From an uncultured Poribacteria bacterium (GTDB taxonomy: Bacteria; Poribacteria; WGA-4E; PCPOR2b), in the NCBI GenBank assembly GCA_958296125.1, contig OY282444.1:2599940-2663939 (forward strand): DNA of 64,000 nt, in the 5' to 3' direction. Of the stretch, positions 24,993 through 45,631 are shown one piece after another (the first letter of the stretch is position 1; every line of letters starts with the position of its first letter). The translations under genes were made by a program, and so were the position numbers. The notes beneath the pieces are model-generated. The model did not search any database, was not told the DNA's origin, and saw only the letters and a program-made list of their open reading frames with translations.

Positions 24993-27900
24993 GTTTCGGT
25001 TCCATACTGGTTCGATTAAAAGTATGTATAGTGGATCGGATGTTACAACCAAGGCAGCGTTTCAATTCCACACTGGTTCGATTAAAAGGAGAATCGCGAC
25101 GAGCTGGACAAGCCAAACGAAAATGTTTCAATTCCACACTGGTTCGATTAAAAGAGGGGATAGGGGGTTCGCTTCCAAGACAGTATGCAGGTTTCAATTC
25201 CACACTGGTTCGATTAAAAGGGAGACGAGGAGTACATCTCCGAATCCACCTGCGAGTTTCAATTCCATACTGGTTCGATTAAAAGAAGAGTTGAAACCGT
25301 TCATCAACAAAAACGGTTGGGAGTTTCAATTCCACACTGGTTCGATTAAAAGTAAGCAGACGGCCGACGCTGGTGTGTATGAGCCCTAGTTTCAATTCCA
25401 TACTGGTTCGATTAAAAGCAAGGTCCGGACTCCGGAATGGTGTAGCCGCGAAGTGTTTCAATTCCACACTGGTTCGATTAAAAGGGTTGAACACATTAAG
25501 GTTCTCACGATCCGGATGGTGTTTCAATTCCACACTGGTTCGATTAAAAGGGAAACTGAAGAAACCAAACGGACTTGGACAATCACGTTTCAATTCCACA
25601 CTGGTTCGATTAAAAGCGGATGGATTGAAGATGACGGCATCAATCAATCATAAGTTTCAATTCCACACTGGTTCGATTAAAAGAGATACAATGGACATGA
25701 TGAACGCGATGTATATCATGTTTCAATTCCACACTGGTTCGATTAAAAGCAGACATAATGTCGGTAGAGTTTATCTTACCAGAGAAGTTTCAATTCCACA
25801 CTGGTTCGATTAAAAGCCGACAGATTAGAGAAACTGACAGGAGATGATAAAACGTTTCAATTCCACACTGGTTCGATTAAAAGACTGTGGACGGAGTGCC
25901 TCTGCGATCGGTGTTACGCGTTTCAATTCCACACTGGTTCGATTAAAAGGTATAAATTCTGCGATGAATTTCCAACATCAATCATGTTTCAATTCCACAC
26001 TGGTTCGATTAAAAGTTGACCAATACGGTACAATACAATGCGACAGGACGAGAGTTTCAATTCCACACTGGTTCGATTAAAAGCCGATCAACCCAGACGC
26101 AACGATAGAGGAGACTAAGTTTCAATTCCACACTGGTTCGATTAAAAGTTTCACGCGCGTGGGGATACGTCGCTGATACTAAATTGTTTCAATTCCACAC
26201 TGGTTCGATTAAAAGGATTGAGCGGGAAGCAACGATCGCTCGAATTTACAAGTTTCAATTCCACACTGGTTCGATTAAAAGTTAGAGATTCAGAAATACA
26301 ATATCAAGTCGACCTTGTTTCAATTCCACACTGGTTCGATTAAAAGAAAAATGTGAGGGTCAGGAGACTCAGGTCTACACACTGTTTCAATTCCACACTG
26401 GTTCGATTAAAAGCAAGGTGGCCGAAATTGATGTGGATATCCACATCGTGTTTCAATTCCACACTGGTTCGATTAAAAGGTATAAGCGAGGCATTGGAAA
26501 CGCTTCAATAGCCATGTTTCAATTCCACACTGGTTCGATTAAAAGCCCGGAAGAAGCAGCTAATGAGATAGTAAGTCTCATGTTTCAATTCCACACTGGT
26601 TCGATTAAAAGGATCGCCTACGGGTCTGAAGTTCACATTGATGTGACTGCGTTTCAATTCCACACTGGTTCGATTAAAAGGAGCCGCCGGAGTAATAATC
26701 GAAACGCTCCCCGCCCCCGTTTCAATTCCACACTGGTTCGATTAAAAGCTGCCCAGACGCCCGATTCCGAGGGCAGGGTTGTAAGTTTCAATTCCACACT
26801 GGTTCGATTAAAAGTAATACCAGCAATAATCGTAACCATCTACGCTATTTCGTTTCAATTCCACACTGGTTCGATTAAAAGATGTCCTAAGTGATGCTCA
26901 TCTGTTAGCTACGGGTAGTTTCAATTCCACACTGGTTCGATTAAAAGAGATCGGCACCCACTAAAAAAGCCCCTCTGTTTCAGTTTCAATTCCACACTGG
27001 TTCGATTAAAAGTTCAAGAAACCGCCTCCCGTCCATCACGAGTCCCTAGTTTCAATTCCACACTGGTTCGATTAAAAGAAGAAGTGCAGGAGTGTTGCGC
27101 TTATATCAGACCACGTTTCAATTCCACACTGGTTCGATTAAAAGGCGGGGATGGACGATGATAAAATTGCCTCGCGAGTTGCGTTTCAATTCCACACTGG
27201 TTCGATTAAAAGCCGTGAGCTCATCGAAGTACCAATTTCAGAGTATCAGTTTCAATTCCACACTGGTTCGATTAAAAGGCATATGATCAAGCGCCCGACA
27301 AGAGCGTCCAGATTAGTTTCAATTCCACACTGGTTCGATTAAAAGACGACTAAACGAAAGGGAAGAGCTCGGCACGGAGCTTCGTTTCAATTCCACACTG
27401 GTTCGATTAAAAGGAGCGTCCTCCGCTGTTGCCGTTTTCATAATCTCATGTTTCAATTCCACACTGGTTCGATTAAAAGCGGGGCTGCCGACATGCAACC
27501 CCCAGAACTCGTCGGTTTCAATTCCACACTGGTTCGATTAAAAGGCAAGGTTCACCAGATCCACCCGTCCCGTCCGAATGGTTTCAATTCCACACTGGTT
27601 CGATTAAAAGTGTTTGTTTGATTGAATACAACGAAAGGAGAAAACAGTTTCAATTCCACACTGGTTCGATTAAAAGGATGGAAAAGCTGGGGTTCGAGGA
27701 AGCCCACATCAGGTTTCAATTCCACACTGGTTCGATTAAAAGTCGATGCGGCATCGATCTAATAGAAGAGATTTAACCGTTTCAATTCCACACTGGTTCG
27801 ATTAAAAGAGATCAAAAGGTTGCAAGCCCAAAAGAAGCGCGCGGGTTTCAATTCCACACTGGTTCGATTAAAAGTCGGCACGGGCGTGGATATGCGGTTA

Positions 27901-29862
27901 GATCCTGTGTTTCAATTCCACACTGGTTCGATTAAAAGTGCGGCAGCAATCTCCATCGATGGACAGATTCACCCGTTTCAATTCCACACTGGTTCGATTA
28001 AAAGGAGAGCACCAGACGATGAAAGATGAATCATTTTCGTGTTTCAATTCCACACTGGTTCGATTAAAAGTCATGTCGATACTCATTAGAATCTCCTTAT
28101 TACATAAGTTTCAATTCCACACTGGTTCGATTAAAAGCGAGACGAGAGGGGATATGTAACTTCCTTTAAGTTGTTTCAATTCCACACTGGTTCGATTAAA
28201 AGTCGTTTGTTTGGGGATGGGGACGAGAAGATATCAAGTTTCAATTCCACACTGGTTCGATTAAAAGACCCACAGTGACCTACAGAAAAGCGAGCCCGAG
28301 CCCGGTTTCAATTCCACACTGGTTCGATTAAAAGATAACGTCATTTGGAGCGTACCGGTACGTAGAAATTAGTTTCAATTCCACACTGGTTCGATTAAAA
28401 GTTGGGGTTTCGTTAAAACGTCGATTGACGTTAGCACGTTTCAATTCCACACTGGTTCGATTAAAAGAATGCGAATTCTAATAACAGGTGATAAGGGGTT
28501 TGTGTTTCAATTCCACACTGGTTCGATTAAAAGGCGGCGGAAATTAGGGCAGTTTACACCTACGTCCGGTTTCAATTCCACACTGGTTCGATTAAAAGTC
28601 GGGTTGCTAGCAGCGCAGCGACAACAGGAATCTGAGTTTCAATTCCACACTGGTTCGATTAAAAGTAATATCTGAAGATGCCGATTTTATTACAGTCCAA
28701 GGTTTCAATTCCACACTGGTTCGATTAAAAGAGGATTAACAATGACGAAACAACAACACCCCCAAGAGTTTCAATTCCACACTGGTTCGATTAAAAGTGA
28801 TTCACCCCTTAGTGAAAAATTAGCTTCACCAACGTTTCAATTCCACACTGGTTCGATTAAAAGTTGCTAACAACGCAAGCAAGGAGATGAAGATGAAAGG
28901 TTTCAATTCCACACTGGTTCGATTAAAAGCTGGATCGAGTATGTAAACCACATAACCATAGCTATGTTTCAATTCCACACTGGTTCGATTAAAAGGTAAT
29001 GCAGACGGATAACCAGACAAGAGGTCAGATAAGTTTCAATTCCACACTGGTTCGATTAAAAGTCGGTTGTATATCGGCAATTCGTATCAGACATACATGT
29101 TTCAATTCCACACTGGTTCGATTAAAAGGAAAAACGTTTACAAACATCTTCTAATCCGAACGAAGTTTCAATTCCACACTGGTTCGATTAAAAGTGAGGT
29201 CATCGCCTCACCATCAGGGGACGCAAGGTTTGTTTCAATTCCACACTGGTTCGATTAAAAGAAGCGTGCCAAGGAAACAATCAAAGCCTTCTCCCCATGT
29301 TTCAATTCCACACTGGTTCGATTAAAAGGCAAACCCGTCGTACCCAGAACCACATTCAGTTCAGTTTCAATTCCACACTGGTTCGATTAAAAGGCCTCAA
29401 ACATCACGAAAACTAAATGGGAATCCAATGTTTCAATTCCACACTGGTTCGATTAAAAGGTCCTAAACTCGGCAGTTATAACGAGTTACGGAATGTATGT
29501 TTCAATTCCACACTGGTTCGATTAAAAGACAGTTGCGATCGGTGGACGACTTACGAACTCTATCGTTTCAATTCCACACTGGTTCGATTAAAAGTTAAAT
29601 TTCATGCACTTTATTCCATATCCCAAACCGGTTTCAATTCCACACTGGTTCGATTAAAAGGCTGATGGAAAACCCCTATCAGAGAGGTGGGAGACCATGT
29701 TTCAATTCCACACTGGTTCGATTAAAAGCAGTAAGATTAGAAAAAGGTCGCTTCCGTATTTATTCGTTTCAATTCCACACTGGTTCGATTAAAAGCCCCC
29801 ACTGCATCGCCCGGGACGTACGTCGAAAGTTCGTTTCAATTCCACACTGGTTCGATTAAAAG
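24993..29862 (-). CRISPR. CRISPR array, 74 repeats and 73 spacers
   Basis: A 30-base repeat recurs 74 times. On the plus strand it begins GTTTCAATTCC, continues ACACTGG and ends TTCGATTAAAAG. On the minus strand it ends ATTGAAAC, the typical 8-base 5' handle of type I-B and III crRNAs, so the array is read on the minus strand like the cas genes. Spacers are 34-39 bases, mostly 36. Nearly all repeats are identical. The terminal one at 24993-25022 has three changes, and those at 25256 and 25389 share its C-to-T change. The degenerate end is therefore leader-distal and new spacers enter at 29862. No exact match of a spacer inside the window was noticed by eye. Confidence 0.99.
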
Positions 29863-30116
29863 CCCGAAAAATCAATAAAAATATTATACCAAACCCGCAC
29901 TATTTCTGCAAGGGGAAAACTGTCTTCAGCTTCAAAAGTCGTCAACGTCTGGTTGTGCAAAATTGACGGGGAGTTGACGACATAGCGTGGTTACGTTTCA
30001 AATCCATAATAGTAGGGCAAAAAAGTAACCTTATGGGCTCAGAATTTGCCTCAGAAATTGAGGTTGACGACTCACCATCCGTGCAAAAACGCCTTCAATC
30101 CGTTGTCGCAGTGCCG
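29863..30116 (-). promoter_or_regulatory. CRISPR leader with promoter and inverted repeat
   Basis: The AT-rich leader lies between cas2 and the first repeat. On the minus strand TTGCAG (29911-29906) and TATAAT (29888-29883) are 17 bases apart; transcription would start near 29876, about 14 bases before the first repeat. A perfect 9-bp inverted repeat, GTCGTCAAC (29938-29946) and GTTGACGAC (29973-29981), is followed by a third copy at 30063-30071. A repeat-like relic, GTTTCAAATCCATAATAG, is at 29995-30012 (14 of 18 matches to the repeat). Confidence 0.8.
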
Positions 30117-30380
30117 TCATAAGAGATTCGTTACCGGATTTTTTTCGATGCCGATCACCTGCTTGTCCATCCACTTTTCATGGCGCATTTGGTAGATGAG
30201 CACTGAATCTTTGCTGTCGTCAACGATTGTCAAAAGCCCTGATTTGACTCTCGCGAGTTGAGCCTTTGTCAACGCGCCTTCAAAGACGGAGTTTTGTACC
30301 CAGTTGAGGTGTTGACGTAAGTATTTGCAGACTTTCGCTACCCGTTTCACGTCAATGTCGTAAACGATAATAACATACAT
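30117..30380 (-). CDS. cas2: CRISPR-associated endoribonuclease/adaptation protein Cas2
   Basis: An 87-residue protein starting MYVIIVYDID, the canonical Cas2 beta-1 strand with the conserved Asp. HLNWVQNSVFEG and SVLIYQMRHEKW complete the ferredoxin-like fold. Cas2 dimers join Cas1 in spacer integration. The start at 30380 matches family alignments; an in-frame ATG 15 bases upstream is possible. It is separated from cas1 by an unusual 160-base gap containing repeats derived from the cas1 3' end. Confidence 0.95.
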   Translation of the reverse strand: MYVIIVYDIDVKRVAKVCKYLRQHLNWVQNSVFEGALTKAQLARVKSGLLTIVDDSKDSVLIYQMRHEKWMDKQVIGIEKNPVTNLL

Positions 30381-30411
30381 TATAATTTTCACCATATAAA
30401 CACAGGTTTCG

Positions 30412-30433
30412 GGTCGGGCTAGGAAGCCCGACC
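30412..30433. repeat. Perfect hairpin in the cas1-cas2 gap
   Basis: GGTCGGGCT (30412-30420) and AGCCCGACC (30425-30433) form a 9-bp stem around AGGA. It resembles short mobile palindromes and could also act as a processing or pausing site between cas1 and cas2. Confidence 0.55.
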
Positions 30434-30437
30434 TACG

Positions 30438-30551
30438 GTTTTACCACCAAGAAAACCCGGCTGCTTGTGGGAGAGGCATCCTTGCCTCGACCATTGGGAA
30501 AGGTTTTACCACCAAGAACACCCCTTATAACCTTTTGTCGTTTTACCACCA
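30438..30551 (-). repeat. Three copies of the cas1 3' terminus
   Basis: The dodecamer GTTTTACCACCA occurs at 30540-30551, where on the minus strand it is the TGG TGG TAA end of cas1, and again at 30503-30514 and 30438-30449. The last two share a longer context (GGTTTTACCACCAAGAA). This is non-coding duplication of the gene end inside the intergenic gap. Confidence 0.75.
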
Positions 30552-31538
30552 TGCCCGAAATGCCTGATAGGTTTCCATGCCTGTCAAATGCTTAATCAAC
30601 TTGTAGCATTCGAGGCGAATGAGGCGTTGGTAAGATACTTTTCGGTTCAATTTTCGATGGTCAATGGTCTGCTTGAGTTGGTCATCGAAGGCTTGGAGAA
30701 ACAGTCGTCTCCCCCTTTCGTTCAAATAGCAGCCCTCCATCTCGGTTTCAAAGTGTTTCGCCTCTTTGAGTTGGCCCCGGTTGAATAGCCGGAAAATCAC
30801 TCGATCAATAAGAATCGGTTTGAAGATTTCCGCCAGATCGAGGCTCAGAGAGAATCGACGTTCTCCCGGTTCATGCAGGAAGCTAATCGTCGGATTCAGT
30901 TGCGTTCGATAGATTTCGGTTAGGCAGGCAGTATACATCAGCGAATTCCCGAACGAAATCGCGGCGTTGATGGGGTTATCGGGTGGTTGGCGGACGCGCT
31001 TCTCAAACGGGGTTTGTAGGTTGATGATGGCGTTGAAGGCGCGGTAGTAGGTTTCGCGGATATTCCCCTCATATCCCATCAGTTCATCCACCCGCTGCGC
31101 GTGCGCGATTTCAGTTTTTATCGCCTCAATGATGCTAAGTTGCTCGGAGCAATCGCTGTTACGATTGGCACGGTAACGCAGGTTTCGCAGGATATTCGCC
31201 ACCGCCGCCGAAACAAATTCGCGGGCAATCGGCAGCCGTTTCGACTTCCGTTCATAGTGCTGCACCTGCTTGACGGTAAGGAATCCAGAGTTTAGGTATT
31301 CTCGCGGATAGTAGGTGCCGGAATAGTAGCCGTAGTAGTTGAAGATGTGAATGGGCACCTGCTTTTGTGCCATGAAGTTGAGAATCCGTGTGTTGAGGTC
31401 CAGTTCGCCATAGAGGTAGAATGCGTCCACATCCTCGATCGGAATCGGCACACGCGACTGGTCCTCTTTTTCAAGATAGATGGTGTTATCCTTGCGGCGC
31501 AATCTACCCGCCTGGCTGATGTAGTAATTGCGAGACAT
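30543..31538 (-). CDS. cas1: CRISPR-associated endonuclease Cas1, type I-B
   Basis: The integrase of spacer acquisition, 331 residues. The N-terminal beta-sandwich (YYISQAGRLRRKDNTIYLE) is followed by the alpha-helical catalytic domain. The metal-binding residues lie in NSLMYTACLTEI, FLHEPGERRFSLSLDLAEIF (conserved His and Asp). The style (long AREFVSAAVANILRNLRYRA helix, cited by its ends) fits type I-B Cas1 proteins. The ATG at 31538 follows cas4 by 13 bases. It is the only cas1 in the window, so both interference modules depend on it. Confidence 0.96.
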   Translation of the reverse strand: MSRNYYISQAGRLRRKDNTIYLEKEDQSRVPIPIEDVDAFYLYGELDLNTRILNFMAQKQVPIHIFNYYGYYSGTYYPREYLNSGFLTVKQVQHYERKSKRLPIAREFVSAAVANILRNLRYRANRNSDCSEQLSIIEAIKTEIAHAQRVDELMGYEGNIRETYYRAFNAIINLQTPFEKRVRQPPDNPINAAISFGNSLMYTACLTEIYRTQLNPTISFLHEPGERRFSLSLDLAEIFKPILIDRVIFRLFNRGQLKEAKHFETEMEGCYLNERGRRLFLQAFDDQLKQTIDHRKLNRKVSYQRLIRLECYKLIKHLTGMETYQAFRAWW

Positions 31539-31551
31539 AATTTCCTCCGTG

Positions 31552-32061
31552 TTAGCTCCAACAGAGCTCTTGATAGCTACAAGACTTGCAGATCTTCATA
31601 TATTCGGCGTGGGGTGGTGCGGGTAACGCGGCAATCTCGATCACTTTTTCGATAGCGGTTTCCAATTCGCGTTCCCTTTCGGGAGTCAGTTCGACCTCGG
31701 TCGTCCGCCGTTGGCGTGGGTAGTTGATAACACCTTTGCGGTTGGATACCCCTTTCTGTTTGAGCAGATAGAGATAGTAGAGAATTTGCATTTCGTGCGC
31801 CTTCTCCATCGCGGGCCCGGACTTGACATCGTGCAGGATGCCGTCTTTGTCAACAAAGTCGATGCTGATGAGGTCGTCGATCGAGCGTTCCTTCCGCTTT
31901 TCGCGCCCGTAACTCTCCTCGTGTAGCAGTTTCCCCATGGAAACGAGGTCTGAGGTGTGTTCCATTTCAATGTGGTTCTGAAAGAACCAGAGCTGGCGTG
32001 GGCAGACGTAAAGGTAGTGGATCATTGTGCCGGTGATGCGGGGTTGGGTTAGGTTTTGCAT
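31552..32061 (-). CDS. cas4: CRISPR-associated exonuclease Cas4
   Basis: A 169-residue RecB-like nuclease with a [4Fe-4S] cluster that trims prespacers and selects PAM. The cluster cysteines are C20 (VCPRQLWF) and the C-terminal trio C158, C161 and C167 (CKSCSYQELC). The nuclease core shows GKLLHEESYGREKRK, SIDFVDKDGILHDVKSG and EMQILYYLYLLKQKG, with D, E and K residues in the expected order. It sits between cas3 and cas1, as is typical of type I-B. Confidence 0.94.
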   Translation of the reverse strand: MQNLTQPRITGTMIHYLYVCPRQLWFFQNHIEMEHTSDLVSMGKLLHEESYGREKRKERSIDDLISIDFVDKDGILHDVKSGPAMEKAHEMQILYYLYLLKQKGVSNRKGVINYPRQRRTTEVELTPERERELETAIEKVIEIAALPAPPHAEYMKICKSCSYQELCWS

Positions 32062-44482: not shown

Positions 44483-45631
44483 TTAGTGTAACCGGAGGTG
44501 GATACGGTCTTTGGAAAGTGCTAACCCGTAGCAGGTCTCATCTCGATTTGACGAAGGATTCCATGACTGAATTTGACAGTGAGTAGACTGTGTTTCGGCC
44601 AGCCTCTCTCTAATTTTTCTATTGATATTGGATCGGGTTTGAGAGAAGCGGGCAATCGGATCGCTGTCCCAACCTTTTAACTTCTCTAGGCGGAAGTCGC
44701 GTGCGGAAATTTGAGAGACAATCTCTTTAAGCGCATCCGTTAGCAGCCCCTCCCGAATCTCAGAACGTGAAATGGAGTATCTGTCCTCAGTTTCCTCGTC
44801 CAGATGCTGCTGTGCAAAAAATAGATAGAGTGCGAGTTCAAGGGGGGTGAGCTTGATGGTGACTTCTCCAATTTCCAAGCAACAGGAGCATGTATTAACA
44901 ATGACAGGAGAGATTGCTTGCAACGCATTATACTCCCGTTGAGCAATCTCGATCAATTCCGTGTACCCGGCATCAGTATGTTCGTTGAGAAAAGGGATCT
45001 TCTCCCTAAGTAGTAACAGTGGGATTTCCGCAAGCTCAAGCCGAATCTCCTCCACAGGAATTGTACGTCCATCGCTCAAAACGACATCGGCACCGTTTGG
45101 CGGCGGATAGAAAAACTCCCGATTTTCAAGCGCAGGATTCACTAGAACATGGGAAAGGGAATCGCCCGGTCTGCCGTAAAATTGCATCGCCAGGCCGATA
45201 TAAAGCCCCATCGTTTTGCGCCCGCCTGCGATAGAGGCGTACAGACAAACATCGGGATTGGCTACCAGATTTCGCACGAATGCAAAGATTTGGTCTGCGA
45301 GGACTTCGTTGTCAATTACACTTGAGATATCTTTTAATGGCTGTCCATCTGCGTTTTTCAAGAGATGAATATTCGCCAGATCGAAGTGAATTGGCGGCAG
45401 ATTGTAGTCATCGCAAAGGGACTTTAGTCTCCCGTTATCTCCGAGAAGAGTCTCCTCCAAGGTCTCCTTGCCACGTAATGTAGTCAAGGCAAAAACTTCG
45501 GTGATTGGAACGGGTGGTGAAGCGAGGCACCAGTAGTAGTAGAGGGTTTCCGTGATGACTTGCGGGGCAAGTCCGACAACGCTAATGAGAACGTGCTTGG
45601 GAGTGGTTTGTCGATTGGGTGTTGTGCACAT
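44483..45631 (-). CDS. CARF-wHTH protein, NE0113 family
   Basis: A 382-residue protein at the head of the cas operon. The N-terminal CARF part starts LISVVGLAPQVITETLYYYW and has ASIAGGRKTMGLYIGLAMQFYG (start and core cited), matching the NE0113-type CRISPR-associated family. The C-terminal about 130 residues (LTPLELALYLFFA, then ARFSQTRSNINRKIRERL, then YGLALSKDRIHL) look like a winged helix-turn-helix. The reading is a ligand-controlled DNA-binding regulator that senses cyclic oligoadenylate and adjusts cas expression. GGGAGA precedes the ATG. No HEPN R-x(4-6)-H motif is present, so it is not a Csm6-type RNase. Confidence 0.82.
   Translation of the reverse strand: MCTTPNRQTTPKHVLISVVGLAPQVITETLYYYWCLASPPVPITEVFALTTLRGKETLEETLLGDNGRLKSLCDDYNLPPIHFDLANIHLLKNADGQPLKDISSVIDNEVLADQIFAFVRNLVANPDVCLYASIAGGRKTMGLYIGLAMQFYGRPGDSLSHVLVNPALENREFFYPPPNGADVVLSDGRTIPVEEIRLELAEIPLLLLREKIPFLNEHTDAGYTELIEIAQREYNALQAISPVIVNTCSCCLEIGEVTIKLTPLELALYLFFAQQHLDEETEDRYSISRSEIREGLLTDALKEIVSQISARDFRLEKLKGWDSDPIARFSQTRSNINRKIRERLAETQSTHCQIQSWNPSSNRDETCYGLALSKDRIHLRLH

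Follow-up and report, generated by a model that had tools for sequence, protein, structure and literature searches.

A conserved 44-bp palindrome in the leaders of bacterial type I-B CRISPR arrays and its probable role in spacer integration

The window analyzed here, a 64-kb stretch of DNA from an uncultured Poribacteria bacterium, contains a CRISPR array of 74 repeats, counted within 3 mismatches (24993-29862, minus strand), which is adjoined by the adaptation genes cas2, cas1 and cas4 (30117-32061, minus strand; cas2 itself at 30117-30395, minus strand). The operon runs cas2, cas1, cas4, cas3, cas5b, cas7b, cas8b, cas6, followed by III-A genes, and the presence of cas3, cas5b, cas7b, cas8b and cas6 together with cas1, cas2 and cas4 next to the array assigns the locus to type I-B. 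Because the most degenerate repeats lie at the low-coordinate end of the array, and because the minus-strand repeat terminates in ATTGAAAC, the leader is the segment at the high-coordinate end, between the first repeat and cas2 (29863-30116), read on the minus strand. Along this strand, the leader presents a distal half-site (D), a proximal half-site (P1), an inverted half-site (P2), a -35 box and a -10 box before the first repeat is reached. The pre-crRNA promoter TTGCAG-17-TATAAT of the original prediction was located as proposed, with its -35 box at 29906-29911, 26 bp after P2, and its -10 box at 29883-29888, separated by a 17-bp spacer (both minus strand); boxes resembling TTGACA-17-TATAAT occupy the equivalent place in related leaders. 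Judging from the usual promoter spacing, transcription would start some 14-15 bp before the first repeat. A relic repeat, which had been proposed at 29995-30012 (plus strand), did not hold up: this 18-mer matches the repeat at 14/18 positions, yet 3 of 200 shuffles reached an equally good match, both congeneric leaders have a differing sequence there, and it is probably no functional relic.

Exact searching recovered all three GTTGACGAC half-sites of the original prediction, two of them as a perfect inverted pair, as well as a fourth copy (GTCGTCAAC, 30216-30224, plus strand) that had been omitted, and that lies within the cas2 open reading frame and is probably incidental; these four are the only copies of the 9-mer in the whole 64 kb. 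P1 (29973-29981, minus strand) is the array-distal arm and P2 (29938-29946, minus strand) the array-proximal arm of the pair, inverted relative to P1 and 75 bp before the first repeat, while D (30063-30071, minus strand) has the direction of P1 and lies 90 bp from it. P1 and P2 together delimit a 44-bp palindrome, GTCGTCAAC-N26-GTTGACGAC (29938-29981, minus strand), with 9-bp arms around a conserved, asymmetric 26-bp centre; it has the core GTCR-N30-YGAC between cas2 and the first repeat and a leader-like centre, and thus belongs to the family of leader palindromes described below. Three half-sites within 254 bp are far more than expected from 2000 dinucleotide shuffles (mean 0.0015, maximum 1) or from the genome-wide rate of the 9-mer (66 copies in 5.16 Mb, which predicts 0.003 per 254-bp leader). 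Some 9-mer with a multiplicity of at least 3 nevertheless arose in 11 of 500 shuffles of the leader, so that the count of half-sites is by itself only moderately surprising, and it is conservation that decides.

The original prediction had made its motif depend on conservation in leaders with the same repeat, and this was found: the 44-bp element is present in 25/25 different same-repeat leaders of Candidatus Poribacteria, which were cut from Cas1 and motif loci (L020 was dropped as a duplicate of the window leader). D begins 87-88 bp before the element in 24 of these leaders and 97 bp before it in L046; between P2 and the first repeat lie 87-88 bp in 21 of them, while the other 4 have 75-77 bp. 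A model built from 26 palindrome copies gave matches at E<=1 in 52/84 genomes, and 27 of 30 loci from this search have a repeat of I-B-like or IscB type no more than 260 bp away, with two of the three others running to contig ends. Viral contigs yielded 0 copies of the phylum palindrome consensus. The core is not present at every array: a second cas1 region of the window's genome (L219, G000:C1:3660000-3672000), whose array has the repeat TTTCAATCTCATTATTGAGAG..., was found to lack the strict core on the strand examined. In another genome, G006, two arrays that use a further repeat (GTTTCAATCCCTCATAGG...) each adjoin a near-identical palindrome, in reversed orientation (L098, L099).

For the comparison with other phyla, a single Cas1 scan of named genomes provided 80 loci, including 65 from phyla other than Poribacteria. 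The strict core GTCR-N30-YGAC was found in the leaders of 37/65 type I-B Cas1 loci of other phyla (35/65 without L150 and L161, whose matches look like chance near cas2), against 0/65 equally long cas1 control stretches and a mean of 0.6 (maximum 5) in mononucleotide shuffles; it is missing from the remaining 28/65. Other gaps between 10 and 60 were found in 0-4 loci each, except for 33 and 36, which are explained by GTCGTC arms. The palindrome model scores high between cas2 and the array in loci of Aminicenantes, Aquificales, Listeria, Clostridiales and Nitrospirae, the Bacillota centres having the opposite orientation, and D-like half-sites occur at 85-102 bp in 12/35 core-positive loci. Searching each leader de novo for a palindrome reached p<=0.05 in 17/61 only, in some cases (e.g., L152 and L179) at other sites. 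With the pattern fixed beforehand, new Cas1 loci were then drawn from two families. Among Listeriaceae, the core was found in 6/7 loci; each of these six has an array, whose repeat is 145-147 bp away. Among Cyclobacteriaceae, it was found in 15/23 loci, or 14/22 without L250, whose palindrome is that of L198 from the earlier set and which probably represents the same organism; where an array was located, the core lies 74-76 bp from the repeat (L255 and L261 have core matches with no located array), and L257 matches again at 161 bp. The pattern alone is not specific genome-wide, since a stricter version occurred at 11 places in a Listeria genome and a control pattern at 19. All three places with a leader-like centre in that genome lie 145 bp from an array, and both leader-like places in Terrilactibacillus are at arrays. 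A short element of fixed geometry thus spans Listeriaceae to Bacteroidota and Poribacteria. From these sequence comparisons, we consider it likely that the inverted pair forms one operator-like element of 44 bp belonging to the leaders of bacterial type I-B systems, often accompanied by a third, distal half-site some 85-102 bp out.

The position of the element relative to the first repeat is stepped. The 25 distances below 90 bp fall at 53-56, 64-66, 74-77 and 85 bp, with a best period of 10.7 bp (R 0.81, 0/5000 uniform simulations as high); thinning the set to 20, a selection of our own that removes relatedness only partly, gave R 0.83, again with 0/5000 simulations as high. Helical phase relative to the repeat is therefore conserved for distances below 90 bp, and is poorer with those of 132-146 bp, which fit a 10.5-bp phase badly and lower R to 0.59 when included. 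The Cas1 tree, in which labels were set partly by hand (L122, L127, L128 and L161 as present, L126 and L150 as absent), L147 was scored as lacking the core although one was displayed there, and the negatives L159, L163, L175 and L176 are too short to judge, contains one supported clade with 0/9 for the core and places Bacillota on both sides, which suggests that presence of the core tracks Cas1 lineage rather than host.

The element is also shared by arrays of different kinds within one genome. Among the 66 genomic copies of the 9-mer, two pairs have the inverted layout with the 26-bp gap; the second pair lies at a cas-less array with the repeat GTTGCAACGCTAACATGCTCAAGCTCAAAC, adjoining an IscB gene (RRXRR and HNH domains). 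Oriented alike with respect to the array, the centres of the two pairs agree, with two mismatches to the joint pattern, so that two arrays with unrelated repeats share both the arm geometry and the asymmetric centre. We examined 13 IscB loci from 8/84 genomes (split matches give the IscB search more rows than loci), 7 of which have an array by a k-mer test. Model matches were found beside L200, L204, L205 and L209, weakly beside L214, and beside a single repeat in L208; no element was found by the model at L201 and L203. At L102, L105, L117 and L118, 46 bp separate the palindrome from the repeat, compared to 64 bp in the window's genome. A close I-B Cas1 is encoded in 4/5 genomes with palindrome-bearing IscB arrays (G000, G026, G027 and G046), and G082, a single contig, has a palindrome before an IscB array and no Cas1 match. 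At L009 (G000:C1:4743000-4752000), L102, L105, L117 and L118, the IscB genes are divergent from cas-less arrays with GTTGCAAC-type repeats, and the IscB-side sequence before the palindrome resembles, by eye, an inverted copy of the repeat, possibly an anti-repeat.

Three features together favour a role in the placement of new spacers: the element is conserved along the Cas1 lineage, it keeps a fixed distance from the repeat, and arrays whose repeats are unrelated have it in common. We infer that the element probably serves in docking or folding of the leader for spacer integration by Cas1-Cas2. The palindrome would be gripped by a protein assembly of two-fold symmetry, for which the Cas1-Cas2(-Cas4) integrase, or an adaptor that accompanies it, is the likeliest candidate; the leader would fold while the palindrome is held, seating the integrase on the leader-repeat junction, and new spacers would thereby be directed to the leader end. 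The half-sites are spaced by 35 bp, which is near spacer length and would suit a two-fold symmetric integrase. The original prediction had offered the inverted pair as the site of either a protein that bends the leader for integration or a CARF-wHTH protein. An integration site is the better supported of the two, given the cross-phylum geometry, the roughly helical steps and the arrays with unrelated repeats. Against docking stand the off-array copies in family f3 (see below), the palindromes of G024, G025 and G082 in genomes without a Cas1 match, and the 28/65 loci and one Cas1 clade without the strict core.

The strongest alternative, which we consider unlikely but a serious competitor, is an operator function: a transcription factor would bind the palindrome and control pre-crRNA promoters, and in f3 also other promoters, with integration uninvolved. 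The distance of the palindrome upstream of the -35 box is 26 bp in the window leader and, judged by eye, about 36 bp in a relative, a difference of about one helical turn. Of 34 further places with a match that we examined, 14 are at arrays or array remnants and 20 elsewhere, and 19/20 of the off-array copies are in f3 genomes (L080-L084 and L086-L091 in G023; L092-L094 and L111-L115 in G024 and G025). These dispersed copies have shared flanks, and several adjoin promoter-like sequence of other genes; in G023 the shared flank with the promoter-like sequence lies between genes. The copies are possibly mobile promoter segments. Binding sites for a transcription factor, or promoter segments that move, would have this appearance, and the copies keep an operator function under consideration. 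In one copy, L091, the centre is reversed relative to the flank, as if inverted between the arms, and from the flanking open reading frames a link of the G023 copies to a diversity-generating retroelement or an FGE gene was considered.

Archaeal CARF-wHTH proteins are precedents for factors that bind leaders. In Sulfolobus islandicus I-A, a leader-distal motif is bound by Csa3a, a Cas1 partner, and is needed for efficient acquisition (excerpt of PMC9456107); MM_0565 binds the I-B and III-C leaders of Methanosarcina mazei, the excerpt of PMC7465815 giving no distinct binding motif. The former shares with our leader a motif away from the leader-repeat junction, and the latter is comparable in that one protein, according to the same excerpt, binds leaders belonging to two CRISPR systems of the same genome. 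The window, however, is bacterial I-B, and no Csa3-like or other CARF-wHTH gene was found among its scanned open reading frames. Its sole CARF protein (44483-45631) matches Csx1/CARF5 models, has no HTH and occurs in 6/84 genomes, compared to 52/84 with a motif match, and hence cannot be the general binder; this part of the original prediction is dropped. Further evidence against an operator is that conservation across phyla tracks the lineage of Cas1, whereas a factor supplied by the host should vary between them, and that IscB arrays have the palindrome 46 bp from the repeat with, by eye, no clear promoter between.

We consider it very unlikely that the palindrome works as an extruded cruciform or hairpin recognized by shape. 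Its alignment has 12-bp arms with 82.7% of cells paired, and Cas1 prefers a leader stem-loop in S. islandicus (excerpt of PMC9456107). The 18-20 nt centre, though, would give a loop of considerable length, and its sequence is conserved too; pairing is broken at columns 13/44 (8/26 rows), 9/48 (11/26) and 18/39 (11/26), as expected if each arm need only match GTCRAC; we therefore rejected a DNA hairpin, and arms that do not match each other exactly are what protein half-sites would lead one to expect. That the palindrome reflects shared ancestry only, as a functionless part of leader segments copied between arrays, is hardly credible, since the core geometry persists across phyla although the surrounding leader, the arm letters and even the orientation vary, notwithstanding that congeneric leaders are similar overall and that the f3 copies show the sequence can spread.

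Integration docking thus remains our preferred reading, and it has parallels in known systems. IHF-dependent leaders of types I-F and I-E resemble the window leader in having an element at a fixed helical phase from the first repeat, and differ from it in motif sequence and spacing. In the window, an IHF site between the upstream motif and the first repeat was looked for and not found: the leader has no exact match to the IHF consensus, and the one site with 1 mismatch (29874-29886) is at chance level. A phasing survey in Current Biology (2021) reportedly described motifs in types I-C, I-E, I-F and II-C. On seven viral contigs with the C. difficile repeat (L220-L226), GTCR-N30-YGAC was found in 0/7 of the C. 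difficile-type leaders; other inverted repeats, TTTTGCAGTG ... CACTGCAAA, are present there. Identity of our motif with the inverted repeats of C. difficile, where an I-B strain has two such motifs upstream of every array (excerpt of PMC8406132, 2021), is thus unsupported. In type I-F, Cas2 contacts conserved inverted repeats of the leader (excerpt of PMC12259127). No description of the leader palindrome was found in the literature searched, which included few subscription papers.

How spacers are placed at the leader end where no IHF-type factor is known is described as an open question (excerpt of PMC9456107), and the palindrome offers a direct handle on it, as it lends itself to mutation, to shifting and to use as bait. 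With it, predictions can also be made as to which arrays without cas genes are open to extension in trans. More tentatively, the integration machinery of bacterial I-B systems may generally use the palindrome for docking, with the IscB arrays of Poribacteria carrying it for extension in trans by the host's I-B Cas1-Cas2. If so, a transposon-type nuclease would borrow the memory writer of another system through a common leader signal.
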